From contig JAKPXO010000001.1 in assembly GCA_029567505.1 (NCBI GenBank), forward strand, positions 1-36,847: a stretch of 36,847 nt of DNA, written 5' to 3'. The DNA comes from Acidobacteriota bacterium (lineage in GTDB: Bacteria; Acidobacteriota; Thermoanaerobaculia; UBA5066). The translations under genes were made by a program, and so were the position numbers. Below, piece by piece: positions 2,996 through 34,776 of this stretch (positions are counted from its first letter, which is position 1; each line of letters opens with the position of its first letter). The notes under the pieces are model-generated. The model saw nothing but the letters and a program-made list of their open reading frames with translations, made no database searches and was not told where the DNA came from.

Positions 2996-4005
2996 CCGTT
3001 TCCGCTCCTTCCCGCTCCCGCGAGGTTGCGTGCGTCGGCGTAGGCGCGCACGCCCCGCGCGAGCGCCTCGGCGATCGCCTCCCGGTACGCCTCGTCGCGG
3101 AGGAGGCGCGCGTCCTCCGCGTGCGAGACGCTCGAGACCTCCGCCAGGATCCCCGGCATCTCGGAGGCGATCAGGACGACGAACGGGGCGCTCTTCACGC
3201 CGCGGTCGCCGGCCTCCGGCGTGACCTTCCGCGTCGAGGCGACGAGCTCGGCCTGGACCGACTCGGCGAGCCGTCTCGACTCCGCCTGGCGAACGCCCAC
3301 GTAGACCTCCTCGAGAAGCCCCCTGAAGTCCGAAAGAGAATAGCCCGAGGAAAGGTTCTCGGCGCTCGCGAGCCGGCGGATCGCGGGGTCGTCCGTCGGG
3401 CCGAGGTAGTACGTCTCGACGCCGCGGCGATCCGGGTTGGGGATCGAGTTGACGTGGATCGAGACGAGAACGTCTCCGCCCGCGTCCCGCGCCCTTCGCG
3501 ATCGCTCGCGCAGGGAGACCGTCTCGTCCCCCTCACGGGTCATCACGACGCGAAAGAGGCCCCCGCGGAGCTTCTCCCTCACCCGCCGGGCGACGTCGAG
3601 CGTGACGTCCTTCTCGGGGAGGCCGTCGGCGGTGAGCGCCCCCGGGTCGACGCCGCCGTGTCCGGCGTCGAGGACGATCGTCCTCACGTCGAGGTGGAAG
3701 AGCGTCGGGTCGATCGACTTCGGCGCGGGCCAGTCGAGCGTCTCGAGCCCCGGCTCGGGAGATGGGGCGACCGTCCGCTGCGGCACGACGACGACCTCCG
3801 TCGGGGTGACGCCCCCGCCGGAGAAGGCGTTGATCGACGCGAAGAGCGCGAGCGGGATCGCGACCAGGGCCGCGCCGCGCACCGCCCTGCCGACCCAACG
3901 CCCTCCCGGGCGGGCGCGCGCCGGGGGCCGTCCCTCGATGACGTCGAGGTTCTCCCGCACGGCGTCGCGGAGCATCTGCTTCTTGAGCCGCTCGGCGTCT
4001 CGCAT
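2992..4005 (-). CDS. Membrane-anchored N-acetylmuramoyl-L-alanine amidase (Amidase_3)
   Basis: A 337-residue zinc amidase that would cut the bond between N-acetylmuramic acid and L-alanine in peptidoglycan. Residues 1-40 are charged and probably cytoplasmic. A membrane anchor lies at about 43-62 (RGAALVAIPLALFASINAF), and the Amidase_3 domain runs from about 108 to 322 in the periplasm. Expected zinc ligands are H116 (LDAGHGGVDPGA), E131 (GLPEKDVTLDVA) and H184 (VSIHVNS). E289 in ILAEVSSVSHAEDARLL is the likely catalytic glutamate. I chose ATG 4005 because the sequence upstream in this frame is the antisense-like extension over kynB and lacks a signal. The gene overlaps the actin start by 4 bp. 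No LysM or AMIN targeting domain is present. Confidence 0.9.
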   Translation of the reverse strand: MRDAERLKKQMLRDAVRENLDVIEGRPPARARPGGRWVGRAVRGAALVAIPLALFASINAFSGGGVTPTEVVVVPQRTVAPSPEPGLETLDWPAPKSIDPTLFHLDVRTIVLDAGHGGVDPGALTADGLPEKDVTLDVARRVREKLRGGLFRVVMTREGDETVSLRERSRRARDAGGDVLVSIHVNSIPNPDRRGVETYYLGPTDDPAIRRLASAENLSSGYSLSDFRGLLEEVYVGVRQAESRRLAESVQAELVASTRKVTPEAGDRGVKSAPFVVLIASEMPGILAEVSSVSHAEDARLLRDEAYREAIAEALARGVRAYADARNLAGAGRSGNG

Positions 4006-4060
4006 GGCCAAGCTCTCATTTTCGCAGCTTTTCCCGCCCGCGGCGGGCCGCCACGGCCCG

Positions 4061-4675
4061 TCAGGGCGCGACGAGGACCGCCCGAACCGGGGAGCCGTCT
4101 CCTCCCTCGATCCGGAGCGGCAGCGCCGAGAGCTCGTAGCGGCCCGGCGGGACGTCCGCGAGGGCGAGCCCTTCGAGCCAGCAGACGCCCGCGGCGACGA
4201 GCGCCCGGTGCGCCGTGTAGGCGTGGTCGTCGTACGGGTCGACGGAGGGGGTGTCGATCCCGACGAGGACGACGCCGCGCGCCGCGAGCGCCGGGGCGAG
4301 CTCCGGATCGAGCCCCGCGAAGGCGTCATCGAACCGCTCCCGGTTCCCGAACGTCCCGGTCTTCAGGATGACCCGGGGCGCGGACGGCGGTTCGGCCAGG
4401 TCCTCGAGGCGCACGCGGCCCCGCGGTGACACCCGCGCCTCCACGACCTGGCAGGTCCCGATCCACGTCTCGAGGGGAACCTCGTCGATCGCGGCCGCCC
4501 CGGCCACCATGTGGAGCGGCGCGTCGGCGTGAGAGCCGAGGTGGAGCGTCGTCCGGATCGACGAGAAGGTCGTCCCGTCGGGAGGCGTCGTCACCTCCCG
4601 CGAGAACGGGACGTCGCCCGGCCAGACGGCGATCCGCGGCGACAGGACCGGAGAGAGGTCGTAGATCCGCGCCAC
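4061..4675 (-). CDS. kynB: Kynurenine formamidase (arylformamidase, cyclase family)
   Basis: A 204-residue cytoplasmic metal-dependent hydrolase that would convert N-formyl-L-kynurenine to kynurenine and formate, the second step of tryptophan breakdown. KynB hallmarks are DLSPVLSPRIAVWPGDVPF near the start and the metal-binding HLGSHADAPLH (H45, H49, D51, H55). GIDTPSVDPYDD follows at about 139-150, with WLEGLALADVPPGRYEL and ALPLRIEGGDGSPVRAVL near the end. Length matches the family (about 205-215). Start is GTG 4675 with a GAGGGA ribosome site just upstream. It lies 7 bp after the aromatic amino acid hydroxylase, so the two share an operon. Tryptophan dioxygenase and kynureninase are not in the window. 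Confidence 0.88.
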   Translation of the reverse strand: MARIYDLSPVLSPRIAVWPGDVPFSREVTTPPDGTTFSSIRTTLHLGSHADAPLHMVAGAAAIDEVPLETWIGTCQVVEARVSPRGRVRLEDLAEPPSAPRVILKTGTFGNRERFDDAFAGLDPELAPALAARGVVLVGIDTPSVDPYDDHAYTAHRALVAAGVCWLEGLALADVPPGRYELSALPLRIEGGDGSPVRAVLVAP

Positions 4676-18028: not shown

Positions 18029-21000
18029 TCAGGGCGTGGGGCAGGCCGCGCCGCCCACGAAGCCGCCGCCCGTCGGGACCGTGTTCGAGGCGAGCCCGGT
18101 CGTCCCGCCACCGCCGTTGCTGCCCTGAACGAAGGCCACGACCGCCGCGTCGTTGTTGTTCGCGCCCCCGTAGCCCGGGAGCCTCACCGTCGTCCCCTGA
18201 CGCTGGCGGAGGCGGAAGTCGGTTCCTGCGTTCGCCCCCGAACCCGTGATGTCGTTCGCGAGGGCGCCGGCCCCGCCGATGCTCGCGCAGATCAGGTACG
18301 TGTCTCCCGGCACGGTGCCGCCGTTGAGGTGGATCCCGTTCATCGGCAGGCCGCCCGTACCGGGCTGCTTGATCGTGTTCCCGGTGATGGTCACGTTCAT
18401 CGCGCCGCTCATCGGCAAAGCGCCGCCACCCGTCAGGAGCTCGATCCCGAAGTTGTTGTACCCGCGGATCTGGTTCCCCGTGATGCCCGCCGTGACCGTC
18501 CCCAGGCCCGCGTTCTGGATCTTGAGCCCGGAGCCCGCCTTCGAGCCCGAGTCGGCGACGCCGGAAACGCCGATCTGGTTGTTCACGAACGTTCCCGAGT
18601 AGGTTCCCGCCCCGGTCGACTTGACGATGAGGACGGCGGTCCCGTCCGAGTCCCGGAACGTATTGCCCGTGATGTTGTACGTGAGGCTCCCGCCGAGGTC
18701 GCCTCCGCTGATCGTCACGCCCCCGCCGCCCGTCGCGATCGCCGGGTGGTTGTTCGTCAGCGTGTTCCCCGTGAAGACGAGGTCGCAGGTGGCTGTCCCG
18801 TTGTTGATGAAGTTGAAGAGGTCGCCGCGTGCCGACGTGAAGGTGCTGTTCTGGATCGTGGCGTTCAGGATCGCGGCTCCCGTCAGCGCCTCGAGGAGGA
18901 TCCCGTCGTTTCCATCCGCCGTGCTGTTCGCCCCGATCGTCACGCTCGAGAACGTGATCCGGTTCAGGGTCCCCGACGTGTTGACCACCCGGAAGTTGTC
19001 GACGAGGCCGCCGCTGATGTTCGTGCTCGACACCGACGCCGTGCCGGTGAGCTCCGTGAACGAGACGCTCCCCTCGCGGGCACCGGCGCTGTTGCCGTTC
19101 ACCCCGCTGATGACCGAGCTCGCGAGCGTGAATCCGTTCACCGTGAGCCCGCGGATCGCGAAGTTCTGGAAGCCGTTCAGCTGCATCCGGCTCAGGGAGA
19201 CGTTCGTCGCGTTGTCGAGGTAGATCCCCGAACCGGCGACCGCCCCGTCCGCGCCGACCATGTTCTGGATCGTCCCTCCGGAACCGGCCGTGCCGGTTCC
19301 GACGACCGCGAAGCTCCCTGACGTGCGTTGGAGGTAGATCCCGTTGCTTCCGCCGTTTGCGTTGACGGTCGTCAGGCTGACCGCGAGCGGCGTCGTCCCG
19401 GCCGCCCTCGTGATCTCGACGGCCGTGGCGCCCGTGGTCGTGATCGTGCCGCCCGAGACGGTCAGGGTCCCGGCGTTCTCCGTCGCGAGGAGCCCTCGCT
19501 GGCCCGTGTCGGGGCTCACCGTGAGCGCTCCGAACGTCACGTTCCCCAGGTTCGAGGCGAGGTTCACCCCGGTCCCGCCCGAGGACGTCGCCGAGGTCGT
19601 ACCGAGGCTGATGGTCCCTCCGGCCACGGACGTCTGGACGTCGATGCCGATTCCCGCCGGGTTCGTGACCGTCGTCGTGCCCGAGGTGAAGGTCCCGCCG
19701 ATCCCTCCGAGGTTGAGCCCCTTGCCCGTGCTGCTCGAGGACGTCAGGCTCGTGAACGTGATCCCCGAGGCGCTCGCGGAGACGCCCGTCAGGTCGACGG
19801 CCGCGGCGTTCGTCGCCGACACCCCGACGCCGTTCTGGACGGTGACGCCGGTGATCGCGCCGGCCTGGTTGTCCGTGAAGCCCACGGCTCCGGTCGTGGA
19901 GATGTCGAGGGAGCTGACGAGGACGGAGCTGCCGCCGAGCGTGACCGTCCCGGTGAGCGTCGGCTTGCCCGCGGCGGCGATCGTGAGCCCCGAGCCGCCG
20001 AGCGAGAACGCTGCGCCCTGGCCCCAGAGGACCTGGTTCGCATCCAGCGTGATGGCCCCGGTGGTGGTCGCCGCGCCCGTGTGGACGAAGACGACGTCGC
20101 CGGCTCCCGACGAGACGTCGGCGTTGGCCAGGTTGTTGAAGGGCGAGCTCGAGGTCCCGACCCCGTTCGCGCCGGAGCTGTTGACGTACCAGACCTGCCC
20201 GACGAGCGTGATGGTGACGTTCGCCGCGGCCTGGGACTCGACGCCGTTGGACGTGACCTTGTACGTAAACGTCGCCGAGGTCTCCGCGCCCGCGTTCGGC
20301 GTGTAGCGGAAGGCGCCCGCCGCCCCGAGCGTCACGGTCCCGTTCGCCGGCTGCGTCAGGCTCGTCACGGTCAGGCCCGGCCCGAGGTCGTTCGAGAGGA
20401 TGTTGGTGGTGTTCGCGACGAACGGTGTCGCCGGCGTCGGCGCGTACCCGCCGCCGTAGAACTCGGTGTTCCCGGCTCCGTTCGCATAGGTGTCCAGGAC
20501 GGCGACCGGTCGGGAGTCGAGGGTGTAGTCCTTCGCGATCGTGCAGGTCGTCGCCGTGTTCGTCGCGGTGACCGTGAACGAGAAGGAGCCCGTCCCGAGC
20601 GCCCCGCCGGGGGTCCCCGTGAGGGCGCCGGTCGCGGCGTTCAGCGAGAGCCCCTCCGGCAGGGAGCCGGCGGTCACGGCGTACGTGAAGCCGCCCGAGC
20701 CGCCGCTCGCCGTGACGGCCTGGCTATAGGCCGTGCCGAACGTGGCGTCCGGAAGGGCCGCGGCCGCCGGTGCGATGTTTAGGACGTTCACGGTGTAGCT
20801 CTGTGCGCCCGCGCAGCCGTTGACGTCGGTGGCCGTGATGCTGAAGGAGAACGAGCCGGCCGCCGTGATGGTCCCCGCGAGGACGCCCGTCGTCGGGTTC
20901 AGGGTCGTTCCCGGCGGGAGGGTCCCGGTCACGCTGAAGGTGAACGGTGCCGTGCCCGCCGAGGGGGTGATCGTCGTCGTGTAGGTCGACCCGACCGTCG

Positions 21001-24000
21001 CGCAGGTCGGCACGGCGGAGAGTCCGATGACGGGGCAGATCCGGACCGTGTAGGCGCGGCTGCCCGTGCAGTTCGTCGTCGTGTCGGTCGCGGTGACCGT
21101 GAACGTGAACTCGCCTTCGGCCGACGGCGTCCCCGTGATCGCGCCGCCGGAGCCGAGCGTGAGGCCGGCGGGGAGAGCCCCGGCCGTCACGGCGAAGGTG
21201 TACGGGCCCGTGCCGCCGGCCGCCGTCACGGTCTCCGTGTAGGCCGTTCCTACGATCCCGCCCGGAGGCGTCGCCGGGCTGACCGTGATCGTCGGGCAGA
21301 CGACCGTGACCGAGAACGGAGCCGAGCCGGTGCAGGTCGCGCCGGTCGCCGAGTCGGTCGCCACGATCGTGAAGTTGAACGTCCCGGCCGCGTTCGGGGT
21401 CCCCGAGAGGACGCCCGCGCTCGACAGCGTCAGGCCGGTCGGCAGCGTGCCGGTCGCGGTGAAGGTCCAGGGCGAGACGCCGCCCGTCGCCGTGAAGGTG
21501 TGCGTGTAGCCCGCCACCCCCGCCGTCACGTTCGTCGGCGGCGCCCCGCCTCCGACGGTGATCGTGGCGCAGGCCACGACGAGCGTGTACGCCTGGTCTC
21601 CCGTGCAGCCCGTCGGGTCGTGCGTCGCGCGGACCGTGAAGTTGAACGTCCCCACCGCCGTCGGCGTGCCCGAGATCTCACCCGTCGTTGGGTTCAGCGT
21701 CAGGCCCGCCGGCAGGGCGCCGGAGAAGACCGAGTAGCCGTAGCTGCCGCCCGCGAGCGCGCTCGAGGCGGTGATCGTCTGGCTGTAGGCCGTCGCCGCC
21801 GTCGCGCCGGGCAGCGTGCCGGGCGACAGCGTGATCGTCGGGCAGGAGATCGTCAGCGGGTAGCTGCGCGAGACCGCGCAGCCGTTCGCGTCCGTCGCCG
21901 TCACCACGACCGTGAAGCTCCCCGGCTCGCCCGGAGTGCCGGACAGAGCTCCCGTCGTCGGGTCGAGCGTCAGCCCCGTCGGAAGCCCCGTGGCGCTCCA
22001 CGTGATCGTCGCCCCGCTCCCCGTCTGCGTGAAGGTGACCGGCCCGTACGCCGTCCCCACCGTCCCCGCCGCGAGGCTCGCCGGCGCGTCGATCGCCATC
22101 TCCGGGCAGATCCGCAGCGTGAAGGCCACGCTCCCCGTGCAGCCGTTGGCGTCCGTCGCCGTCACGACGACCGCGAAGCCCCCGGCTTCCGTCGGCGTCC
22201 CCGTGAGCGCTCCCGTCGCCGCGTCGAGCGTCAGCCCCGCCGGCAACCCCGTCGCGCTCCATGCGACCGGAAGGACGCCGCCCGTCTGCGCGAAGGTGGT
22301 CCCCGCGTAGACCTGGTTGATCGTCCCCTGCACCGCCGTCGCCGGCGTCACGTCGATCACCGGGCAGATCCGCACCTGGTACGCCGTCGCGCCGCTGCAC
22401 CCGTACTGGTCCGTCGCCGTGATCGTGAAGCTGAAGAGGTTCGCCGTCGTCGGCGTCCCCGTGATCGCTCCGCTCGCTCCGTCGAGAGCGAGCCCGTCCG
22501 GAAGCGCTCCGTTCGTCACCGCGTAGAGGTAGGCCCCTCCGCCGCCGGCCCCCAGGACGGTCTGGCCGTACGCCGTCCCGACCGTTCCGTTCGTGAGCGC
22601 CCCCGGTCCCACCGTGATCGTCGGGCAGACGATGACGACCGTGTAGGCCTGGCTCCCCGTGCAGCCGTTCCCGTCCGTCGCCACCACCGTGAAGCTGAAG
22701 GTCCCCGCCGCCGTCGGCGTCCCCGTGATCGCTCCCGTCGCCCCGTCCAGCCCGAGGCCGGGGGGAAGCGTGCCGGGCGCCACCGAGTACGTCACCGTCC
22801 CGAGGCCGCCCGTCGACCCGACGCTCTGGCTGTAGGCGATGCCCGTCGTGCCGCCCGGCAGCGTCGCCGGGCTCACCGTGATCACCGGGCACTCCACCAC
22901 GAGCGTGTAGGCCCGCGTCCCCGTGCACCCGTTCGCGTCCGTCGCCGTGACCGTGATGTCGAACGTCCCCGTCACCGTCGGCGTCCCCGAGAGGACCCCC
23001 GCCGTCGTCAGGGTGATCCCCGCAGGCAGCGCCCCGGTCGTCACGGCGTACGTCACCGCCCCGACTCCGCCCGCCTGCGTCAGCGTCACCGGCCCGTACG
23101 CCGTCCCCGCCGTCGCGTTGGAAAGGCTCGCCGGGCTGACCGTGATCACCGGGCAGTCCACGACCAGCGTGAGCGCCCGCGTCCCCGTGCACCCGTTGGC
23201 GTCCGTCGCCGTGACCGTGAAGTTGAACGTCCCCGTGACCGTCGGCGTCCCCGAGAGGACCCCCGCCGTCGTCAGCGTCACGCCCGCCGGCAGCGCCCCG
23301 GTCGTCACGGCGTACGTCACCGTTCCGACCCCGCCCGTCTGCGTCAACGTCACCGGCCCGTATGCCACCCCTGCCGTCCCGTTCGAAAGGCTCGCCGGGC
23401 TCACCGTGATGACCGGGCACTCCACCACGAGCGTGTAGGACTGCGTCCCCGTGCACCCGTTCGCGTCGGTCGCCGTCACGGTGAAGCTGAAGGTCCCCGT
23501 GACGGTCGGCGTCCCCGAGAGGAGCCCGGCGCTCGTCAGCGTCAGTCCGGCCGGAAGCGCTCCGGTCGTGACGGCGTACGTCACCACCCCGACTCCACCC
23601 GTCTGCGTCAGCGTCGCCGGCCCGTAGGCCACACCCGCCGTCCCGTTCGAAAGGCTCGCCGGGCTGATCGTGATCGTCGGGCAGCTCACCGTGAGCGTCG
23701 TCGCGAGGGTCCCGGTGCAGCCGAGGGAGTCGGTCGCGGTGACGGAGAAGGGGAACGTCCCGACGACGGTCGGCGTGCCGGACAGGACTCCCGTGGCGCC
23801 GTCGAAGGTGACGCCCGTCGGGAGAGCGCCCGCGGTGACCGCGAACGTCGTCGGGCCGACCGCGCCGGAGGCCGTGAAGGTGGTCGGCGCGATCGCCACG
23901 CCGGCCGTCGCCGCCGGAAGGGTCGCCGTGACTCCGATGGGGTTACAGACCAGGATCGGGCGCGCGACCGTTAGGTCGCAGCCGTTCGCGTCGCGATAGG

Positions 24001-26236
24001 TGATCTCGACGTCGAACTGGCCCGCCTCGGTCGGCGTGCCCTCGATCCGGCCGCTGCTCGAGACCGTGAGGCCCGGCGGGAGGCGGCGCCCCGCGAACGT
24101 GCCGGAACCGGAGCCCCCAGTGACGGTCAGGGCGACCGTCGGGTAGGGAGCTCCGACCGTCCCGGCCGGAAGGCCCGCGGGCGCGATCGACATCGGCGGG
24201 CAGCCGACCTCGATCCTGTAGGCTCGCTCTCCGGTGCAGCCGTTGGCGTCCGTGACGGCGACGGTGAACGAGGCCGCCCCGGCCTCGACCGGCGTCCCCC
24301 CGAGGAAGCCCGACGGGGTGAGGGTGAGGCCGGCGGGGAGCTCGCCTTCCGAGATCCGGAAAGCGAGCGGCGGACGGCCGGCCGCGGCCGTGAAGGAGAC
24401 CCCCGGGTACGGCTCGCCGACCGTGGGCACGGGGAGCGTCTCGGGCTCGAGCGCCAGGTCTCCGCAGACCGCGATCTGGAGCGTCCGCGTCTTCACGCAG
24501 CTTCCCTTCCGGACCTTCAGCGTCACCTCGACGGGGCCGGCTCCCGGGAAGGAGGTCTTGTACGACCGGGCGTCCTTGTCGAGCTGGAGCTCAGGGCCGG
24601 AGCCGATCCGGATCGACTGGGAGGTCAGGTTCGCGGTCGGCGGATCGATCGCGAGCGTCCAGGAGAGCGTCGTCTCGACGCCCGGAATCACCGGGAGCGG
24701 CGTCGCCTCGAGCGTGAGGATGGCGACCTTCGAGCAGTCGCCTCCTCCCGGGAGGCCGAACGAGCGCGTGACGGCGTCGCCCGAGCCGTTGTCGATCTGG
24801 CTCACGTAGGCGTCGAGGGCACCCTGCTCGACCGTGACGTCGATGCGCGAGTTCGGCGGGACCGTGGCGAGGGAGAGCCCGTCGCGCGAGGTCGCGCCCG
24901 CGAGGGCCGACGCGAACCAGTCGGCGACGCCGAGCTGGCCCCATTCGCCGGGTGCCCTCTGGAACGGCGTCCGCCCCTGCTCGGCTCCGCGCTCGTCCCG
25001 GAGGACGAGGGCCCCGGCCGCCCCCTCGGGGCCGCCGACGAGCGCGAGGTTCGTCCGCGTCCCGGGGACGTTCAGCGTCTGGTCGATCCCCGTGAAGTAG
25101 CCGGTCGAGCCCGCGGCGAGGAGCCCCGTCGGCCAGATCGAGACGAACTGCTGCGCCGAGAAGGTCCCCGTCCGGACTCCGGTCGGGTCGAGGTTGTTCG
25201 TCCGCGCCGCCACGAGGAGCGGCGTGTCCGCGGAGACGAGGAGGGCGCTCGCCGTCTGCTCGGGGAAGCCGAGGAAAGCGAGGACCCGCGGCACCTCCAC
25301 GATCCCGTTCGCGGGAATCGGGACGGGCGCGCTCGCCGCCGAGGGCGCGCCGAGGGAGCGGACCGTCGCGACGACCGGCTCGGCGCCCGGGTTGAAGAGG
25401 CGCAGGTCCGTGACCCAGAAGGCGCCGAGGTGGCCCGGCGAGAGGGCGGCGCCCGAGACGAGACGCTCGGTCGAGCCCGCGGGGACCCGCTCGCACGGGA
25501 GCGCGATCGCGTCGGAGGTGACGTTGTCGTTGACGACGGCGTAGGCCGTCGCCCGGCCGGCCTTCACCTCGAACGCCGCGCGGCCGACCGGAAGAGACTC
25601 CTCACCGGCGATCGCCGTCACCGGCTGCTGCCAGACCTGCGGGGCCGCGGCCGAGAGGGTCGTCTCGCCGGCCAGGCTCCCGTCGGCCTCGAAGACGCGG
25701 ACGACGACGACCGTTCCCGGGTCCACGAGGGTCACGGAGAGATTCGTACGGTAGCCGGTCTTCGGGTCGGCCGAGTGGCTCACCCAGATCGAATGCCCCG
25801 TCTCGCCGGTCGCGAGAAGCTCCGCCTCCGGCACCGCGCCGAGGCCCAGCCCGTAAGGCCCCTCGGCCGCGGCGACGTTGCGCGTCGTGAGGCTCGCGAG
25901 GAGCGGTGTCTCCGAAGCGACCGTGATCGTGCCGGCGCTTCCCTCCGCGAGGCCGAAGAGCGTCTTCAGGGCGGCCTCGATCCGCAGGCTCTCGCCCGCC
26001 GCGAGCGTTCGCGTGACCGGAGCGGGCGTCGTCATGCCGGCCATCGGGACGAGCCCGACCGTCGCCGTCACCGCGGCGTCACCCGGGTTCGCCAGCTCGA
26101 GGGTCGAAGAGAATCGCGCGCCCTGGAGGCCGGAGAGCTCGGCCGCGCCCGGCAAGTAGGTCGTCTCCGCGACGAGGAGCGGCGACGAGCCGAGGAGGGC
26201 GGCCAGAACGAGCCCGAGGGCGATGCGCTTCGTCAT
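18029..26236 (-). CDS. Giant secreted Ig-repeat and beta-helix surface protein (2,735 aa)
   Basis: Signal peptide at residues 1-23 (cut near LLVA). A beta-rich N-terminal region runs to about 590. Fifteen tandem Ig-like repeats of about 88 residues (He_PIG type, LPAGLTLT..G.LSGTPT..GTF.FTVTATD.NGC.G) cover about 591-1907. A cadherin/VCBS-like module (ILSNDLGPGLTVTSLTQPANG) lies near 1940-2010. A long parallel beta-helix from about 2015 to the end is rich in ITGNTF, NNQIGV and SFTELTGTASV turns. Most Ig units start with Cys and carry a second Cys in NGCTG, suggesting one disulphide per unit. ATG 26236 is preferred to ATG 26251 because GAGG lies 9 bp before it. No LPxTG, IPTL or autotransporter barrel is visible, so anchoring is unclear. 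Probably an adhesin; first gene of the collar operon. Confidence 0.88.
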   Translation of the reverse strand: MTKRIALGLVLAALLGSSPLLVAETTYLPGAAELSGLQGARFSSTLELANPGDAAVTATVGLVPMAGMTTPAPVTRTLAAGESLRIEAALKTLFGLAEGSAGTITVASETPLLASLTTRNVAAAEGPYGLGLGAVPEAELLATGETGHSIWVSHSADPKTGYRTNLSVTLVDPGTVVVVRVFEADGSLAGETTLSAAAPQVWQQPVTAIAGEESLPVGRAAFEVKAGRATAYAVVNDNVTSDAIALPCERVPAGSTERLVSGAALSPGHLGAFWVTDLRLFNPGAEPVVATVRSLGAPSAASAPVPIPANGIVEVPRVLAFLGFPEQTASALLVSADTPLLVAARTNNLDPTGVRTGTFSAQQFVSIWPTGLLAAGSTGYFTGIDQTLNVPGTRTNLALVGGPEGAAGALVLRDERGAEQGRTPFQRAPGEWGQLGVADWFASALAGATSRDGLSLATVPPNSRIDVTVEQGALDAYVSQIDNGSGDAVTRSFGLPGGGDCSKVAILTLEATPLPVIPGVETTLSWTLAIDPPTANLTSQSIRIGSGPELQLDKDARSYKTSFPGAGPVEVTLKVRKGSCVKTRTLQIAVCGDLALEPETLPVPTVGEPYPGVSFTAAAGRPPLAFRISEGELPAGLTLTPSGFLGGTPVEAGAASFTVAVTDANGCTGERAYRIEVGCPPMSIAPAGLPAGTVGAPYPTVALTVTGGSGSGTFAGRRLPPGLTVSSSGRIEGTPTEAGQFDVEITYRDANGCDLTVARPILVCNPIGVTATLPAATAGVAIAPTTFTASGAVGPTTFAVTAGALPTGVTFDGATGVLSGTPTVVGTFPFSVTATDSLGCTGTLATTLTVSCPTITISPASLSNGTAGVAYGPATLTQTGGVGVVTYAVTTGALPAGLTLTSAGLLSGTPTVTGTFSFTVTATDANGCTGTQSYTLVVECPVITVSPASLSNGTAGVAYGPVTLTQTGGVGTVTYAVTTGALPAGVTLTTAGVLSGTPTVTGTFNFTVTATDANGCTGTRALTLVVDCPVITVSPASLSNATAGTAYGPVTLTQAGGVGAVTYAVTTGALPAGITLTTAGVLSGTPTVTGTFDITVTATDANGCTGTRAYTLVVECPVITVSPATLPGGTTGIAYSQSVGSTGGLGTVTYSVAPGTLPPGLGLDGATGAITGTPTAAGTFSFTVVATDGNGCTGSQAYTVVIVCPTITVGPGALTNGTVGTAYGQTVLGAGGGGAYLYAVTNGALPDGLALDGASGAITGTPTTANLFSFTITATDQYGCSGATAYQVRICPVIDVTPATAVQGTINQVYAGTTFAQTGGVLPVAWSATGLPAGLTLDAATGALTGTPTEAGGFAVVVTATDANGCTGSVAFTLRICPEMAIDAPASLAAGTVGTAYGPVTFTQTGSGATITWSATGLPTGLTLDPTTGALSGTPGEPGSFTVVVTATDANGCAVSRSYPLTISCPTITLSPGTLPGATAATAYSQTITASSALAGGSYGYSVFSGALPAGLTLNPTTGEISGTPTAVGTFNFTVRATHDPTGCTGDQAYTLVVACATITVGGGAPPTNVTAGVAGYTHTFTATGGVSPWTFTATGTLPTGLTLSSAGVLSGTPNAAGTFNFTIVATDSATGATCTGSAPFSVTVVCPTITVSPATPPGGIVGTAYTETVTAAGGTGPYTFAVTAGALPAGLTLGSGGAITGTPSAEGEFTFTVTATDTTTNCTGSRAYTVRICPVIGLSAVPTCATVGSTYTTTITPSAGTAPFTFSVTGTLPPGTTLNPTTGVLAGTITAAGSFSFSITATDVNGCAGAQSYTVNVLNIAPAAAALPDATFGTAYSQAVTASGGSGGFTYAVTAGSLPEGLSLNAATGALTGTPGGALGTGSFSFTVTATNTATTCTIAKDYTLDSRPVAVLDTYANGAGNTEFYGGGYAPTPATPFVANTTNILSNDLGPGLTVTSLTQPANGTVTLGAAGAFRYTPNAGAETSATFTYKVTSNGVESQAAANVTITLVGQVWYVNSSGANGVGTSSSPFNNLANADVSSGAGDVVFVHTGAATTTGAITLDANQVLWGQGAAFSLGGSGLTIAAAGKPTLTGTVTLGGSSVLVSSLDISTTGAVGFTDNQAGAITGVTVQNGVGVSATNAAAVDLTGVSASASGITFTSLTSSSSTGKGLNLGGIGGTFTSGTTTVTNPAGIGIDVQTSVAGGTISLGTTSATSSGGTGVNLASNLGNVTFGALTVSPDTGQRGLLATENAGTLTVSGGTITTTGATAVEITRAAGTTPLAVSLTTVNANGGSNGIYLQRTSGSFAVVGTGTAGSGGTIQNMVGADGAVAGSGIYLDNATNVSLSRMQLNGFQNFAIRGLTVNGFTLASSVISGVNGNSAGAREGSVSFTELTGTASVSSTNISGGLVDNFRVVNTSGTLNRITFSSVTIGANSTADGNDGILLEALTGAAILNATIQNSTFTSARGDLFNFINNGTATCDLVFTGNTLTNNHPAIATGGGGVTISGGDLGGSLTYNITGNTFRDSDGTAVLIVKSTGAGTYSGTFVNNQIGVSGVADSGSKAGSGLKIQNAGLGTVTAGITGNQIRGYNNFGIELLTGGGALPMSGAMNVTITGNTIKQPGTGGLPMNGIHLNGGTVPGDTYLICASIGGAGALANDITGSGANAGTDFRLRQRQGTTVRLPGYGGANNNDAAVVAFVQGSNGGGGTTGLASNTVPTGGGFVGGAACPTP
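20517..24466 (-). repeat. Fifteen tandem Ig-like repeat units inside the giant gene
   Basis: Unit starts can be read from the recurring CPxI(T/D)VSP segment, each 84-91 codons apart. The first unit starts at 24466 (CGDLALEPETLP) and the last ends near 20517 (CTIAKDYTLDS). Units 4 to 6 are nearly identical, units 7, 11 and 13 are close relatives, and units 1, 2, 14 and 15 are the most diverged. This fits growth by internal duplication from the middle. Confidence 0.85.
22892..23683 (-). repeat. Three near-identical 264-bp units
   Basis: Ig units 6, 5 and 4 occupy 22892-23155, 23156-23419 and 23420-23683, each exactly 264 bp (88 codons). The same landmark (around ATCACCGGGCA) recurs at 22881, 23145, 23409 and 23673. 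DNA similarity is high even at third positions, so duplication or gene conversion was recent relative to the outer units. Unit number here may vary between strains and be prone to misassembly. Confidence 0.85.
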
Positions 26237-26544
26237 CTTTCTTGACCTCATGGAATCAGCAGGGAGCTTCGATTCAGGGAGGGGCTGGCGCTGGGACGAG
26301 GGGCCGGAGAGCTCAGCGAAGAGCCGGGAGCAGGACGGCCACGAGGGCTGGAGGTCTGGACTAGACGGGGGACCAGACGGACGCTACCACGGTCAGGTTC
26401 GAACACGGATCGATTCTCAATGTAATCCCTTTCCGGTCCGGAACGAAACTTTCGGGCGCATCGGGCGTAGCCGCTATATGTGCCGCACCGGCGCGGTGTA
26501 CGAACTGTGACCTTGCGTCACACTCTTCGAGGAGGACTTGCCCC
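26237..26544. promoter_or_regulatory. Divergent promoter region between giant gene and tldD
   Basis: These 308 bp hold no credible gene; short open frames here lack ribosome sites and family signals. The part from 26401 to 26480 is noticeably richer in A and T than its surroundings and should carry the promoters of both flanking operons. A TATATG (26475-26480) could be the -10 of tldD, with no convincing -35. An odd palindrome CGAAA-C-TTTCG lies at about 26444-26454. Toward the giant gene I see no clear box, only an A/T-richer stretch around TGTAATCCC. Confidence 0.5.
26506..26522 (+). promoter_or_regulatory. Perfect palindrome TGTGAC-N5-GTCACA before tldD
   Basis: A 6-bp perfect inverted repeat with a five-base spacer, 22 bp upstream of the tldD start and just before its ribosome site. 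It resembles CRP/FNR-family half-sites (TGTGA/TCACA), but the halves are 7 bp apart, not the usual 6, so it may be a different regulator's operator or a small RNA hairpin in the leader. Confidence 0.35.
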
Positions 26545-28098
26545 ATGCCTGAGAATCCCGGCATGTCGAGACGAAAGCTCATCGGCCTGGGCGCGGCGAC
26601 CGTGGCTGCCACCGCCCTGCCCGACGCCCTCTTCCGCCTCTCATCCGCCGCCGCCGCGACCGGCCCGACGGAGGGAGTCGGCTACTTCGCCCGGTTCGGC
26701 GTCACGGAGAAGATGCTCCGCGACGGCCTCTCCGCCGCCCTCTCCCGCGGGGCCGACTACGCCGACCTCTTCTTCCAGCACCGCGTCGGCAACAGCCTCG
26801 CCCTCGAGGACGGCGCCGTGAACCGCGCCTACGCGAGCGTCGAGCTCGGCGTCGGCGTGCGAGCCGTCAAGGGCGACCAGACCGGCTACGCCTACACGGA
26901 AGACCTCACCCCCGAGGCGCTGGTCCAGGCAGCGAAGACCGCCGCCGCGATCGCCGACGGTCCGGCGAGGGAAGGGCCGAAGGGGCTGAAGGTCGACACC
27001 TCCCTGCCGGCCCGCTACCCGGTGAAGACCCGCTGGGAGGACGTGCGGCCGCAGCAGAAGCTGCCGCTCCTCTCGGGCCTGAACGAGAAGGTCTTCGCCG
27101 CCGACAAGCGGATCACGAAGGTGAACGTCTTTTTCGGCGACGAGGCGGGGGCGATCCTGATCGCCGACTCGAACGGCCGCGTCGTCGAGGACCTCCAGCC
27201 GATGACGCGCCTCGGCCTCTCCTGCGTCGCGGAGCAGGACGGGAAGAAGGAGACGAACGGCTACAACGTCGCCGGGCGCGCCGACCTCGGCTACTACTCC
27301 CCCGACCGCCTCGAGCGAATCGTGAAGGAGGCCGTCTCCCGCACCCTCGTCCTCTTCGAGGCGGTGCAGCCCCCGGCCGGCGAGATGCCGGTCGTCCTGG
27401 GGGCCGGCGCTTCGGGAATCCTCCTCCACGAGGCGATCGGCCACGGGATGGAGGCGGACTTCAACCGAAAGGGGATCTCGATCTTCGCCGACCGGATCGG
27501 CAAGCCGGTCGCGAACAAGTTCGTGAACATCGTCGACGAGGGGACGATCCCGGGCGCCCGCGGCGCGATCAACGTCGACGACGAGGGGAACCCGGTCGGC
27601 AAGACGATGCTCGTCGAGAACGGCATCCTGACGACCTACCTCCACGACTCGATCTCCGCGAAGCACTACAAGGTGAAGCCGACCGGCAACGGGCGCCGCG
27701 AGAGCTACGCCTACGCCCCGGTCCCCCGGATGCGCGCCACCTACATGCTCCCCGGACCGCACAAGAAGGACGAGATCGTCGCCTCGGTCAAGAAGGGGAT
27801 CTACTGCACGAACTTCACGAACGGGCAGGTGCAGATCGGGGCCGGCGACTTCACGTTCTACGTGAAGAACGGCTACCTCATCGAAGACGGCAAGCTCACG
27901 AAGCCGATCAAGGACGTGAACATCATCGGGAACGGCCCGAAGGTCCTCGAGAAGATCGACATGGTCGCCGACGACCTCGTCATCGACGAGGGGGGCTGGA
28001 CGTGCGGCAAGGACGGACAGTCGGTGCCGGTCTCCCAGGGGATCCCCACCGTGCGCGTCGCGTCGATCACCGTCGGCGGACGCGGAAAGCAGGCGTGA
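26545..28098 (+). CDS. tldD: TldD metalloprotease subunit with twin-arginine signal
   Basis: A 517-residue TldD/PmbA-family zinc metallopeptidase subunit. In known pairs, TldD carries the zinc site and works as a heterodimer with TldE, degrading unfolded peptides and maturing some peptide antibiotics. The zinc motif HEAIGH is at 295-300, followed by MEADFNRKG. The C-terminal cysteine expected as a further ligand is C487 (GWTCGKDGQ). The N-terminus SRRKLIGLGAATVAATALP is a twin-arginine signal, unlike the cytosolic E. coli enzyme. Start ATG 26545 has GAGGAGG (26529-26535) at 9 bp; ATG 26563 would also keep the signal. tldE follows after 10 bp, so this is a two-gene operon. Confidence 0.9.
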   Translation: MPENPGMSRRKLIGLGAATVAATALPDALFRLSSAAAATGPTEGVGYFARFGVTEKMLRDGLSAALSRGADYADLFFQHRVGNSLALEDGAVNRAYASVELGVGVRAVKGDQTGYAYTEDLTPEALVQAAKTAAAIADGPAREGPKGLKVDTSLPARYPVKTRWEDVRPQQKLPLLSGLNEKVFAADKRITKVNVFFGDEAGAILIADSNGRVVEDLQPMTRLGLSCVAEQDGKKETNGYNVAGRADLGYYSPDRLERIVKEAVSRTLVLFEAVQPPAGEMPVVLGAGASGILLHEAIGHGMEADFNRKGISIFADRIGKPVANKFVNIVDEGTIPGARGAINVDDEGNPVGKTMLVENGILTTYLHDSISAKHYKVKPTGNGRRESYAYAPVPRMRATYMLPGPHKKDEIVASVKKGIYCTNFTNGQVQIGAGDFTFYVKNGYLIEDGKLTKPIKDVNIIGNGPKVLEKIDMVADDLVIDEGGWTCGKDGQSVPVSQGIPTVRVASITVGGRGKQA

Positions 28099-28108
28099 GG
28101 TGAGAGAG

Positions 28109-29437
28109 ATGGCCCAGCAGGACATGCTCGCCGCCGCCCACGCCGCCGTGAAGAGCGCCCTCGGCAAGGGGGCACAGGAAGCTTCTGCCCGCACCTACCG
28201 CGTCCGCGAGGTCGAGGTGAAGTGGCGCGACGGAGCCCTCGAGAAGGTCCACGAGGCGACGACCCGCGGCCTCGGGCTGACGCTCTACGTCGACGGCCGC
28301 TACGCGAACGTCTCGACGAGCGACCTCCGCCCCGAGGCGCTCGAGACGTTCATCGGCGACTCCGTCACCCTGACCCGCGCCCTCGCGAAGGACCCGTTCC
28401 GGACGCTCCCCGACCCGAAGCTCTACGAGGGGCAGGCGAAGGTCGACCTCCTCCTCGAGGACCCGAAGTACGCGACCGTCACCCCCGAGCAGCGCCGCGC
28501 CGTCGCGAAGGAGATCGAGGCCGCCGCCCGCTCCGTGAAGGGGTCCGGCGCGATCCTCTCCGTCACCTCGAGCTTCAGCGACACGCTCGCCGAGAGCTGG
28601 CGCGTCTCCTCGAACGGCTTCTCCGGATCGCGCCGCGACACGCAGTTCTGGGTCTCCGCCGAGGTGAGCGTGAAGGACCCCGACGGCCGCAAGCCGGAGG
28701 ACTACGCCTTCGGCGGCTCGCGCTTCGTCGGCGAGATGCCGAAGGCGGGCGAGATCGGCCGCGACGCCGCCGAGCGCGCCCTCTCGCGCCTCGGCGCGAA
28801 GAAGGGGGAGTCGGCCGTCCTCACGATGGCCGTCGAGAACCGCGCCGCGGGCCGGCTCCCGGCCTACCTCCTCGGGCCCCTCTCCGGAGGCGCGCTCCAG
28901 CAGAAGCGCTCCTTCCTCGAAGGGAAGCTCGGCCAGGCGATCGCGAGCCCCGCGCTCACGCTCGTCGACGACCCGCTCGTCCCGAAGGCGTTCGGCTCGC
29001 GCCTCTTCGACGGTGAGGGAATCGCCGCGAAGAGGATGCCGATCGTCGAGGCGGGCGTCCTCAAGGCGTACTACATCGACACCTACTACGGAAAGAAGCT
29101 CCAGATGGCGCCGACGACCGGCGGCCCGTCGAACGTCGTCTGGACGCTCGGCGACAAGGCCCAGGCCGCGCTCCTCGCCGCGATGAAGGAAGGGATCCTC
29201 GTCACCGGCTTCCTCGGCGGCAACTCGAACGGCCTCACGGGCGACTTCTCGCTCGGCGTCCAGGGCTTCCGCGTTCGCGGCGGGAAGATCGCCGAGCCCG
29301 TCGGCGAGATGAACATCTCCGGCAACCACCTCGACCTCTGGAAGAAGCTCGCCGCCGTCGGCAACGACCCCTACCCCTACTCCTCCATGAAGACCCCCAC
29401 CCTCGTCTTCGAGGGCGTCCAGTTCGCCGGGGTCTGA
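28109..29437 (+). CDS. tldE: TldE/PmbA subunit without zinc motif
   Basis: A 442-residue PmbA/TldE-type protein, partner of the TldD encoded just upstream. It lacks any HExxxH motif, as expected for TldE, which shapes the substrate channel. Family segments include RTYRVREVEVKWRDGALEKV, GLGLTLYVDGRYANVSTSD, PLSGGALQQKRSFLEGKLG, DDPLVPKAFGSRLFDGEG, TGFLGGNSNGLTGDFSLG and EPVGEMNISGNHLDLWKKL. ATG 28109 is preferred over GTG 28100 because GAGGTGA lies at a suitable distance only from the ATG. There is no signal peptide, in contrast to TldD. A strong hairpin terminator begins about 40 bp after the stop. Confidence 0.9.
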   Translation: MAQQDMLAAAHAAVKSALGKGAQEASARTYRVREVEVKWRDGALEKVHEATTRGLGLTLYVDGRYANVSTSDLRPEALETFIGDSVTLTRALAKDPFRTLPDPKLYEGQAKVDLLLEDPKYATVTPEQRRAVAKEIEAAARSVKGSGAILSVTSSFSDTLAESWRVSSNGFSGSRRDTQFWVSAEVSVKDPDGRKPEDYAFGGSRFVGEMPKAGEIGRDAAERALSRLGAKKGESAVLTMAVENRAAGRLPAYLLGPLSGGALQQKRSFLEGKLGQAIASPALTLVDDPLVPKAFGSRLFDGEGIAAKRMPIVEAGVLKAYYIDTYYGKKLQMAPTTGGPSNVVWTLGDKAQAALLAAMKEGILVTGFLGGNSNGLTGDFSLGVQGFRVRGGKIAEPVGEMNISGNHLDLWKKLAAVGNDPYPYSSMKTPTLVFEGVQFAGV

Positions 29438-30974: not shown

Positions 30975-32765
30975 CTACCAGCCCTTCGGCTGCCCCTTCG
31001 TCTGCTCGTCGAGCCACTTCTGGAGCGGCGCGAAGTAGTCGAGGACGGCCGTCGCGTCCATCTCGCGCTGGCCGGTGAGGGCCTCGAGCGCGTCGGGCCA
31101 CGGCTGGCTCTGCCCCATCTCGAGCATCTTGATCAGCTTCGCCCCGGCTTCCTTGTTCCCGTAGATCGAGCAGGTGTGAATCGGGTCGGTGCAGCCGGCC
31201 GTCTTCGCGAGGGCGCGGTGCATCTGGAACTGGAGGACGTGGGCGAGGAAGTAGCGCGAGTAGGGGACGCCCGCCGGGATGTGGTACTTGGCGCCCGGGT
31301 CGAAGTGGTCTTCGGTGCGCGCGACGGGCGGGACGACCCCCTGGTACTTCAGCTTGAGGTCCCACCAGGCCTCGTTCCACTTCGCCTCCGGCACCTCGCC
31401 GGCGAAGGCCTGCCACCGCCACTTGTCGATGAGGAGGCCGAACGGCAGGAAGGCGATCTTCTCGAGCGCCATGTTGAGGAGGTAGCCGACGTCTTTCCCG
31501 GGAGGAGGCGTCTTCTCGAGGAGGTTCACTTTCTTCAGGTACTCGGGCGTCAGCGAGAGGGCGATGACGTCGCCGATCGCCTCGTGGAAGCCGTCGTTCG
31601 CGCTGTCGCGGAAGAGGACGGGCTGGCGGTTGTAGGCGCGCTGGTAGACGTTGTGCCCGAGCTCGTGGTGGACGGTCGCGAAGTCCTCCGCGTTGATCTC
31701 GATGCACATCTTCAGGCGCAGGTCGTCGACCCAGTCGACGCACCAGGCGCTCGCGTGGCAGACGACCTCGCGGTCGCGCGGGCGGGTGAAGAGGGAGCGC
31801 TCCCAGAACGTCTTCGGGAGCGGGTCGAAGCCGAGCGAGGTGAAGAAGCCCTCGCCGTACCGGACCATCTGCCGCGCGTCGGTCTTCTTCTCGACGAGGA
31901 TCTTCGTCAGGTCGTACCCCGGGTCGGCGTCCTTGGGCGCGAGGAGCGGGTAGAGGCTCCCCCACGCCTGCGCCCACATGTTCCCGAGGAGGTGCGCCGG
32001 GATCGGCCCCTTCTCGGGGACGACGTCCTTCCCGTACGTCTCGCGGAGCTTCATCCTCGTGTAGGCGTGGAGCGAGACGTAGAGGGGCTTCACCTGCTCC
32101 CAGAGCCGGTCGAGCTCCTTGGCGTAGGCGTCGGCCGGCATGTCGTACTTGGACCGCCACATCGCGCCCATGTCCGCGAAGCCGAGCTCCTTCGCGCCGG
32201 CGTTCCCGAGCTCGACGTAGCGGGCGTAGTCCTTCCGGAGGCCCGCCCCGACCTCGTGCCAGCCGGCCCAGAGGGCGGCGAGCTCCTTCGGGTCGCGGCT
32301 CGTCGCGAGGCGGCTCGAGATCTCCTCCAGGGAGAGCGGCTCGCCGCCGGGCGGCGTCCACTTGCCGCGGCCGTAGGCCGCCTCCATCCCGGCGGCGACT
32401 CGCGCGAGCTCCTCGCTCTTGGCGGGGTCGGACGGCGCCGCGAGGACGAGGGAGAGCTTCAGGAGCTTCAGCTTCCGGGCCGTCTCCGCGTCGAGCGCGA
32501 GCCCGTCGAAGCGGGTCGCCTCCTTGGCGAGACCGGCGGCGAGCTCCATCCGGCGCTGGTTCCCCTCGGCGGCGATCCGCTCGGTGTCCTCGGTAATGAA
32601 GTTCGAGGCGACCCAGTTCGCGCGCTCGGCGGCGATCGAGGCCTTGAGGAGCTGCTCTTCGGCCTTCTCGACGAAAGCCTTCGCATCGGCCAGGGTCGGG
32701 GTCTGGGCGGCGATCGTCATCGGGACGAGGAGGAGAAGGAGAAGGGCGGGGAGGGTCTTCTGCAT
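30975..32765 (-). CDS. Secreted M2-family peptidyl-dipeptidase (ACE-like)
   Basis: A 596-residue zinc peptidase related to angiotensin-converting enzyme, which removes C-terminal dipeptides. A signal peptide (KTLPALLLLLLVPMTIAAQ) is followed by the all-helical M2 domain. Zinc ligands are H367 and H371 in HHELGHNVYQ and E395 in ANDGFHEAIGD, exactly the HEXXH-x23-E spacing of M2. Typical parts include LGNMWAQAWGSLYPLL, VCHASAWCV and RYFLAHVLQFQMHRAL, and IPAGVPYSRYF equals the ACE YVRYF region. Start ATG 32765 has GGAG 10 bp upstream; the longer open frame upstream overlaps the divergent hydrolase. The product would fit the secreted prolyl oligopeptidase in degrading peptides outside the cytoplasm. 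Confidence 0.93.
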   Translation of the reverse strand: MQKTLPALLLLLLVPMTIAAQTPTLADAKAFVEKAEEQLLKASIAAERANWVASNFITEDTERIAAEGNQRRMELAAGLAKEATRFDGLALDAETARKLKLLKLSLVLAAPSDPAKSEELARVAAGMEAAYGRGKWTPPGGEPLSLEEISSRLATSRDPKELAALWAGWHEVGAGLRKDYARYVELGNAGAKELGFADMGAMWRSKYDMPADAYAKELDRLWEQVKPLYVSLHAYTRMKLRETYGKDVVPEKGPIPAHLLGNMWAQAWGSLYPLLAPKDADPGYDLTKILVEKKTDARQMVRYGEGFFTSLGFDPLPKTFWERSLFTRPRDREVVCHASAWCVDWVDDLRLKMCIEINAEDFATVHHELGHNVYQRAYNRQPVLFRDSANDGFHEAIGDVIALSLTPEYLKKVNLLEKTPPPGKDVGYLLNMALEKIAFLPFGLLIDKWRWQAFAGEVPEAKWNEAWWDLKLKYQGVVPPVARTEDHFDPGAKYHIPAGVPYSRYFLAHVLQFQMHRALAKTAGCTDPIHTCSIYGNKEAGAKLIKMLEMGQSQPWPDALEALTGQREMDATAVLDYFAPLQKWLDEQTKGQPKGW

Positions 32766-32850
32766 GTGGGGTTCACTCCGATCGACGATCATCCCACGCG
32801 AGCGGTCCGCTGTTAACGTTCGCCCGAGCGCCCCCGAGGGAGGTCCCGTC

Positions 32851-34776
32851 ATGCGCCTTCGCGTCCTCGTCCCGGCCGCCGTCCTCGCCGTCCTCGCCGT
32901 CTCCACGCCCGGCGGGCGGGGCGCGGAGCCCGCGGCGTCGCTCGCCGCCTTCATCCGCGAGAGCTACACGAAGCACGAGCATCTCGTCCCGACTCGCGAC
33001 GGGACGCGCCTCTTCACGGCGGTCTACGTCCCCAAGGACGCCGGGCCCGCGAAGCGCTATCCGGTCCTGATGAACCGGACGCCGTACTCCGTGGCCCCCT
33101 ACGGGATCGACGCCTATCCGGCCGCCCTCGGGCCGTCGGAGGCCGCGGCGCGGGAGAAGTTCATCTTCGTCTACCAGGACGTGCGGGGCCGGATGATGTC
33201 GGAGGGGACGTTCGTCGACGTGCGGCCCGTCCTCCCGAAGAAGGGGCCGAAGGACGTCGACGAGACGACGGACGCCTTCGACACGGTCGACTGGCTCGTG
33301 AAGAACGTCCCCCACAACAACGGGAAGGTCGGAGCCTGGGGGATCTCCTACCCCGGCTTCTACGCGGCCCTGGCGGCGATCGACGCGCACCCGGCGCTCG
33401 TCGCCGTCTCGCCGCAGGCCCCGGTCGCCGACTGGTTCGCGGGCGACGACTTCCACCACAACGGCGCGTTCTTCCTCGCGGCGGCGTTCAACTTCTACGT
33501 CCGCTTCGGCCAGCCGCGGGAGGGGCCGACGACGAAGTGGGCGCCCCGGTTCGACCACGGCACGATGGACGGCTACCGCTTCTTCCTCGAGGCCGGTTCG
33601 GCCGCCGGCCTCTCGAAGCACATGAAGGGGGTCGCCTTCTGGGACGACCTGATGGCCCACGAGACGTACGACGCGTACTGGCAGGCGCGGAACACGCGAC
33701 CGCACCTCGCGGGGGTTCGTCCCGCGGTCCTGACGGTCGGCGGCTGGTTCGACGCCGAGGACGCCTTCGGCTCGCTCGAGACCTACCGGGCCATCGAGAG
33801 GCAGAGCCCCGGCGCGAGCAACCGGCTCGTCGTCGGCCCCTGGTGGCACGGCGGCTGGGCGCGGAGCGACGGCGAGTCCCACGGGCGCGTCACCTTCGGC
33901 CAGAAGACCTCCGTCCGCTACCGCGAGGAGATCGAGCTCCCCTTCTTCCTCCACCACCTGAAGGGGGCTCCCGATCCGAAGCTGTCGGAGGCGACCGTCT
34001 TCGAGACGGGGCGGAACGTCTGGCGCTCCTTCGATGCCTGGCCTCCGCGCGAGGCGAAGGCGACCTCCTTCCGGCTCGGCGCGGGGGGCGTCCTCGCTTC
34101 CGATCCTCCGCCCGCCGGGAGCGCCGTCGCGGCGGAATGGGTCAGCGACCCCGCGAAGCCGGTGCCGTACGTCGAATCCGTCGAGATCGGGATGGACGCC
34201 GACTACATGACGGCCGACCAGCGCTTCGCCTCGCGCCGACCCGACGTCGCCGTATGGCAGACGCCGCCGCTCGAGGCGGACCTCACCGTCGCCGGACCGA
34301 TCGAGGTGAGCCTCTCGGTCTCGACGAGCGGCACCGACGCCGACTGGGTCGTGAAGCTCGTCGACGTCTGGCCCGACGACGTTCCCGTGGAGGCGTGGGA
34401 GTGGACGCCGCGGAACGTCTGGGACGAGAAGCCGACCCGCTCGAAGCTGGGCGGCAACCAGCAGCTCGTCCGGGGCGAGCCGTTCCGGGGGCGCTTCCGG
34501 AAGAGCCTCTCCTCGCCCGAGCCGTTCGTCCCCGGGAAGGTGGAGACGGTCGCCTTCACAATGCCCGACGTCCTCCACACCTTCCGGCGCGGGCACCGCG
34601 TGATGGTGCAGGTGCAGAGCAGCTGGTTCCCGCTCGTCGACAGGAACCCGCAGACGTTCGTCCCGGTCCGCACCGCGGGTGAGAGCGACTACCGCCCGGC
34701 CACGATGCGCGTCCACGACGGCGCGGAGAGCCCCTCGCGCGTCGTCCTGCGGGTGCTGCCGCCGGAGCGACCCTGA
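32851..34776 (+). CDS. Secreted CocE/NonD (S15-type) hydrolase, alpha-amino-acid-ester-hydrolase-like
   Basis: A 641-residue exported hydrolase of the X-Pro dipeptidyl-peptidase/CocE group. A signal peptide (RVLVPAAVLAVLAV) precedes the alpha/beta-hydrolase domain with RDGTRLFTAVYVPK and the oxyanion-side YQDVRGR. The nucleophile is S166 in GAWGISYPG, the acid D301 in GGWFDAEDAFG, and the base H333 in GPWWHGGW. The C-terminal jelly-roll (from about 440, TVAGPIEVSLSVSTSGTDAD) is diagnostic of the family. The Ser-Tyr-x-Gly nucleophile elbow and WWHGGW match alpha-amino ester hydrolases, so acyl transfer or hydrolysis of amino acid esters or amides is likely. GGGAGG lies 6 bp before ATG 32851. 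It diverges from the M2 peptidase. Confidence 0.9.
   Translation: MRLRVLVPAAVLAVLAVSTPGGRGAEPAASLAAFIRESYTKHEHLVPTRDGTRLFTAVYVPKDAGPAKRYPVLMNRTPYSVAPYGIDAYPAALGPSEAAAREKFIFVYQDVRGRMMSEGTFVDVRPVLPKKGPKDVDETTDAFDTVDWLVKNVPHNNGKVGAWGISYPGFYAALAAIDAHPALVAVSPQAPVADWFAGDDFHHNGAFFLAAAFNFYVRFGQPREGPTTKWAPRFDHGTMDGYRFFLEAGSAAGLSKHMKGVAFWDDLMAHETYDAYWQARNTRPHLAGVRPAVLTVGGWFDAEDAFGSLETYRAIERQSPGASNRLVVGPWWHGGWARSDGESHGRVTFGQKTSVRYREEIELPFFLHHLKGAPDPKLSEATVFETGRNVWRSFDAWPPREAKATSFRLGAGGVLASDPPPAGSAVAAEWVSDPAKPVPYVESVEIGMDADYMTADQRFASRRPDVAVWQTPPLEADLTVAGPIEVSLSVSTSGTDADWVVKLVDVWPDDVPVEAWEWTPRNVWDEKPTRSKLGGNQQLVRGEPFRGRFRKSLSSPEPFVPGKVETVAFTMPDVLHTFRRGHRVMVQVQSSWFPLVDRNPQTFVPVRTAGESDYRPATMRVHDGAESPSRVVLRVLPPERP

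Follow-up and report, generated by a model that had tools for sequence, protein, structure and literature searches.

Here, I propose that the Tat translocase moves an assembled TldD/TldE peptidase chamber through the inner membrane by means of one signal, that of the catalytic subunit TldD, the signal-less TldE crossing as a hitchhiker. Among the explanations considered this is the best one, and I put its probability at roughly 70%. It builds on features that are computed, namely a signal present on TldD only, the recurrence of that signal among relatives, a conserved active site, the order of the two genes and the presence of a Tat system in the genome. The gene pair lies in a stretch of 36,847 nucleotides from an Acidobacteriota bacterium, which was analysed as a whole and is referred to below as the window. 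The initial annotation of this DNA had already put forward the hitchhiker reading; comparison with relatives supports it, the crossing of TldE itself being what I infer from that comparison.

The gene pair and its active site

Both products are members of the PmbA/TldD family (Table 1). TldD scores 62.4, 53.5 and 225.1 bits against the first, second and third PmbA_TldD domains of Pfam, and TldE 206.1, 46.9 and 36.7 bits, all above the cut-offs; no HExxxH occurs in the translation of TldE. Against NF008006, the NCBIfam equivalog of the E. coli-type TldD, the window TldD reaches 413.1 bits, below the cut-off of 513 bits, and it is a member of the family, not an E. coli equivalog. Its AlphaFold2 model (mean pLDDT 81.5) superposes on E. 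coli TldD (5nj5_A) with a TM-score of 0.86 by query length and 0.92 by target length, an rmsd of 2.3 and 40% identity, and the nearest solved relative of the window TldE is 1vpb (BT3649) from Bacteroides thetaiotaomicron (E 3e-105).

Table 1. Features of the tldD/tldE locus in the window and of the second pair on contig C409 of the same genome (coordinates of the last row are those of C409)
Feature	Position	Strand	Evidence
tldD, 517 aa, catalytic subunit with predicted Tat signal	26545..28098	+	ORF and PmbA/TldD domains
tldE, non-catalytic, signal-less subunit	28100..29437	+	445 aa from GTG 28100; 442 aa from ATG 28109
Shine-Dalgarno-like GAGGAGG	26529..26535	+	read in sequence; 9-nt spacing to the TldD ATG
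Predicted Tat signal peptide and linker, TldD residues 1-43	26545..26673	+	RR motif, h-region; pLDDT under 50
Twin-arginine codons R9 and R10 of TldD	26569..26574	+	nearly invariant in alignment A1
HEAIGH metal motif, H295/E296/H300 of TldD	27427..27444	+	invariant, 31/31 aligned rows
Cys487 of TldD, expected third metal ligand (E. coli Cys454)	28003..28005	+	invariant, 31/31; role taken from the E. coli homologue
C-terminal domains of the second pair, C409	TldD-like ~4021-4596; TldE-like ~2564-3223	-	PF19289

The GAGGAGG placed 9 nt 5' of ATG 26545 supports a TldD start that takes in the Tat signal. For tldE, GTG 28100 stands one base past the stop codon of TldD, and ATG 28109 is as likely a start. 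A promoter scan around tldD and tldE found none, and no terminator-like site was found 3' of tldE on the coding strand. Upstream of tldD, at 18029-26251 of the window on the reverse strand, lies the gene of a 2740-aa protein made of many similar repeats, putative-Ig-like by eye.

The Tat signal of the window TldD

The N-terminus of TldD reads MPENPGMSRRKLIGLGAATVAATALPDALFRLSSAAAAT. Its residues 7-14 are M-S-R-R-K-L-I-G, followed by an uncharged hydrophobic stretch and then by an alanine-rich end, and the conserved core of the protein starts at about residue 46; residues 1-43 fall outside the fold modelled by AlphaFold2. It had been claimed at the outset that TldD starts with a Tat signal and that TldE has none, and both claims hold, for the RR motif, h-region and alanine-rich end follow a plausible ATG in the former and neither a Tat nor a Sec signal is found in any plausible start of the latter. 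By the in-house rule (RR motif, h-region and c-region) the window TldD is called a Tat substrate. The genome encodes TatC (E 3.2e-69) together with two TatA/B-type genes. The signal of the window lineage has no lipobox, and an exported chamber would there probably be soluble.

The signal across orthologues

All signal calls come from in-house rules and not from SignalP or TatP. A Tat signal was taken as RR-x-[FILVMAWY] followed by a charge-free hydrophobic stretch that is correctly spaced from the core, with a start codon upstream; after shuffling of the upstream stretches this rule still gives a call in 1.3% of them. The near loci are 80 of the 488 confirmed stretches obtained when one genome of each GTDB species was scanned; together with further genome-search loci and fetched regions they form the wide set, which counts 144 catalytic TldDs and 127 TldE-type partners, all distinct. 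Six duplicate ORFs were dropped, among them L087, L116 and L123 (the same as L072, L044 and L069, respectively), and L151_5, slightly nearer to TldD by score but lacking HExxxH, was placed with the TldE-type partners.

A Tat signal is called in 77 of the 144 TldDs, and a signal of any kind, Tat or Sec-like, in none of the 127 partners, as hitchhiking demands of the subunit that is carried. Among the near loci the orthologue check returned a Tat signal at 58 of 80, from many phyla (one of them, L049, is doubtful by eye), in line with the initial annotation; the 22 loci without it comprise several Anaeromyxobacter, some Vicinamibacteria, one Aminicenantes and others. Around the twin arginine, F occupies position +2 in 57 of the 77 signals and L, I, V or M position +3 in 75, and the preceding residue is mostly S, T or N. 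In no TldD of the wide set is RR replaced by KR, RK, KK, QR or HR in such a signal, as would be predicted for Tat but not for Sec. A lipobox ends 29 of the 77 signals, against 3.6 expected from shuffling of the same 42 residues; for a lipobox is sensible only on an exported protein, its excess provides independent evidence of TldD export. Lipobox-ended signals are found in many Myxococcota and Bacteroidota, where the chamber would probably be anchored to the membrane.

TldDs of the flavobacterial type, added later and by eye, start with KRRDF and have signal-less TldEs adjoining. In one genome of the Bacteroidota sample, three Tat-type TldD genes are clustered with two signal-less TldE genes (contig C12 of G246, L193-L195).

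On a FastTree phylogeny of 153 TldDs, from which sequences with fewer than 380 core residues or with internal stops were excluded, about 12 changes of the Tat state are counted (11 if restricted to rows for which a TldE close behind is available) and no TldE follows; among the Tat rows the lipobox changes about 9 times. The repeated changes of state characterise the signal as a module that comes and goes, TldE remaining signal-less throughout. TatC is encoded in 48 of 50 genomes of the relatives; it was not found in G153 and G182, both of which carry Tat-type TldDs, the latter being also one of the genomes with a sole pair (see below).

Gene order and neighbourhood

A TldE match lies 3' of TldD at all 80 near loci, some of them cut by contig ends. 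That a Tat-bearing TldD always neighbours a signal-less TldE, a point raised for checking at the start, agrees with the set used for the tree: a TldE-type gene stands directly downstream of 79 of the 79 Tat-bearing TldDs for which downstream DNA is available (82 in total), vs 41 of 66 resolvable cases among non-Tat TldDs. With phylogeny taken into account, the tighter linkage of Tat pairs lacks significance (independent-pair sign test, median p 0.5), and gene linkage was therefore rejected as a discriminator between Tat and non-Tat pairs, the contrast being largely phylogenetic and the linkage consistent with hitchhiking. Cysteine depletion of TldE, considered as an independent mark of periplasmic life, proved uninformative; Tat and non-Tat pairs do not differ in TldE cysteine count within the near clade (p 0.46), and the p of 0.046 in the wide set is phylogenetically uncorrected.

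Beyond widespread response-regulator-like ORFs, no neighbour gene recurs across phyla among the compared loci, and no conserved neighbour gives a clue to the substrate. The pair had also been said to accompany other exported peptidases of the window. The M2 (angiotensin-converting-enzyme-like) peptidase at 30975-32954, on the reverse strand, is the one that was checked, and there the statement stands by eye, an internal Met beginning a Sec-like signal; as a conserved partner of the pair it was discarded, since it is not recurrent among the compared loci.

A Sec-type relative with two signals

A divergent relative provides a natural contrast to the window pair. The family is held by 15 of 70 sampled genomes of the phylum of G185, and in four of them a divergent pair bears Sec-like signals on both subunits. 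Strong relatives of this Sec type (E under 1e-50) occur in 18 of 198 genomes of the same phylum and in 19 of 119 of the window's phylum (L183, L189, L196-L212, L226-L243 and other loci, in Bacteroidota and Acidobacteriota), and the bacterial family of G185 holds both Tat-type and Sec-type pairs. Like the window pair, the Sec-type pair has PmbA_TldD_3rd in both subunits (three proteins tested), HExxxH in one only, mostly adjacent genes and export signals; unlike it, the subunits are about 590 and 580 aa long, lack a PF01523 match (three proteins tested) and both carry a Sec-like signal. Such signals are called in 34 of 36 ORFs for the catalytic subunit and in all 35 for the partner, counts which exclude ORFs whose match starts past residue 150 or which have no upstream sequence, and in both members of 22 of 23 adjacent pairs; the same detector, run on the main set, picks none of the 127 TldE-type partners and 2 of the 67 TldDs devoid of a Tat signal. 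Judged by these N-termini, the Sec type looks Sec-exported. Two signals with Sec and one with Tat are to be expected if Sec moves the subunits singly and Tat a folded pair.

TldD might also be exported alone, to work as a homodimer or with some other partner, TldE being a cytoplasmic assembly or proofreading chaperone of TldD. Dedicated chaperones exist for other Tat substrates, and the confinement of the signal to TldD as well as the strict co-linearity of the two genes would fit a private chaperone. In addition, a TldD homodimer of Sulfolobus is reported to be active (cited in PMC5810440, in the portion of that paper available here), so that an exported TldD might do without TldE, which counts against hitchhiking. 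Nevertheless I consider lone export unlikely. TldE retains all the PmbA/TldD domains and evolves in step with TldD, the identity matrices of the two being correlated with r 0.96 (n = 115 pairs, phylogeny not removed). It is equally present beside the signal-less TldDs of the near clade, and help with export is thus not its general role, whereas the invariably self-signalled partner of the Sec-type pair suggests that a TldE-like subunit is wanted outside.

Second pairs and sole pairs

A search with PF01523 had indicated that the window pair is the only TldD/TldE of its genome. This is wrong, for PF19289 reveals a divergent pair, missed by PF01523, on contig C409 (L160); its TldD carries HEVVGH, and neither subunit has a visible signal. 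A second signal-less TldD pairing with the window TldE had been named at the outset as the finding that would speak against hitchhiking. Such a TldD does exist, but it pairs elsewhere, being 23% identical to the window TldD and having a TldE of its own adjoining (22% identical to the window TldE).

Five other two-pair genomes were compared. In four of them, the TldE next to the Tat-bearing TldD resembles the window TldE (0.47-0.66) more than it does the other TldE of its own genome (0.25-0.32); in the fifth, G152, the two are tied. G152, an Anaeromyxobacter MAG, has two related pairs (L013 and L050), one with a Tat-lipoprotein TldD and one signal-less; their TldDs are 68% identical, which points either to a recent change of compartment or to a chimeric bin.

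According to PF19289 (genome completeness not stated), 13 genomes have a sole TldD, which is Tat-bearing, and a sole TldE, which is signal-less. They are 9 of 50 genomes (G164, G168, G175, G182, G184, G185, G189, G190 and G198) and 4 of 26 in a second sample (G405, G408, G415 and G416); G407 is also single-pair, but its stretch ends within the start of TldD, and it stands outside the 13. Where the Tat-bearing TldD is the sole one, TldE would be orphaned if kept inside. For the window genome has a second pair, this argument draws on the 13 other genomes.

The presence of one pair only in these genomes would equally suit a chamber active in both compartments, with export partial or slow, a cytoplasmic pool that remains active and a signal that adds a second location; likewise, that pairs alike in other respects have repeatedly gained or lost the signal suggests that both sites are viable. 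I hold such a dual location for quite unlikely, though, because the lipobox of so many signals suggests a committed exported form and because several genomes, that of the window included, keep a separate signal-less pair. That the N-terminus of TldD is no export signal at all, but a vestige or an inner-face membrane anchor of a cytoplasmic pair, is very improbable, for even if export is predicted from sequence and signal-less orthologues occupy part of the near loci, the Tat consensus around RR extends over many phyla and a vestige would decay rather than show a lipobox excess.

A proposed route for the assembled chamber

According to the favoured explanation, Tat hitchhiking, the products of tldD and tldE would fold and assemble in the cytoplasm into a closed, metal-loaded chamber, which the Tat translocase would carry whole over the inner membrane on the one signal of TldD; this signal would then be removed or acylated, and the periplasmic chamber may trim unfolded peptides that enter N-terminus first, at no expense of ATP. 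We infer export of TldD, co-export of TldE and this chamber function alike. In the E. coli complex both subunits are required for activity, the assembly is stable and about 65 A across, its active site lies within a shell entered by unfolded N-termini, and the TldD homodimer is too unstable for purification as a dimer (PMC5810440, same portion). Certain Tat substrates are transported as heterodimers that bear one signal between them (PMC10924467, as far as available).

On a broader scale, it appears rather probable that periplasmic, often lipid-anchored TldD/E chambers are widespread in Acidobacteriota, Myxococcota, Bacteroidota and several candidate phyla, hitchhiking through Tat, that a Sec-exported relative with two signals exists independently, so that one chamber became extracytoplasmic by two evolutionary routes, and that the number of signals is set by the pathway. 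If large bacterial groups do export assembled TldD/E, its main task there would be extracytoplasmic, namely to turn over or process peptides in a compartment free of ATP; existing annotations as 'modulator of DNA gyrase' would mislead, and Tat hitchhiking would extend beyond redox enzymes. Moreover, as Sec and Tat types contrast inside a single protein clan, the one-signal rule lends itself to a direct test.

Comparison with known systems

TldD/E, known as a protease of the cytosol, matures microcin B17, and both partners of the E. coli pair reside in that compartment. The E. coli pair (TldD/PmbA, PDB 5NJ5 series) resembles that of the window in its domains, in its metal site of HExxxH and Cys and in its non-catalytic partner; unlike the window TldD, E. 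coli TldD has a shorter N-terminus with no leader, residue 64 of the window protein pairing with residue 41 of the crystallised construct. Tat hitchhiking is already known, and full-text searches of open-licence PMC papers found no published account of a Tat-exported TldD/E, so that TldD/E was not found described as its cargo. As to the established hitchhikers, such as Ni-Fe hydrogenases, formate dehydrogenases and PaoABC, the likeness to the route proposed for the window pair consists in one signalled subunit that carries a folded partner (PMC10924467, as far as available); those named in the literature consulted, in the parts available, are redox enzymes, whereas the candidate cargo is here a two-subunit peptidase chamber with its metal site in the signal-bearing subunit.
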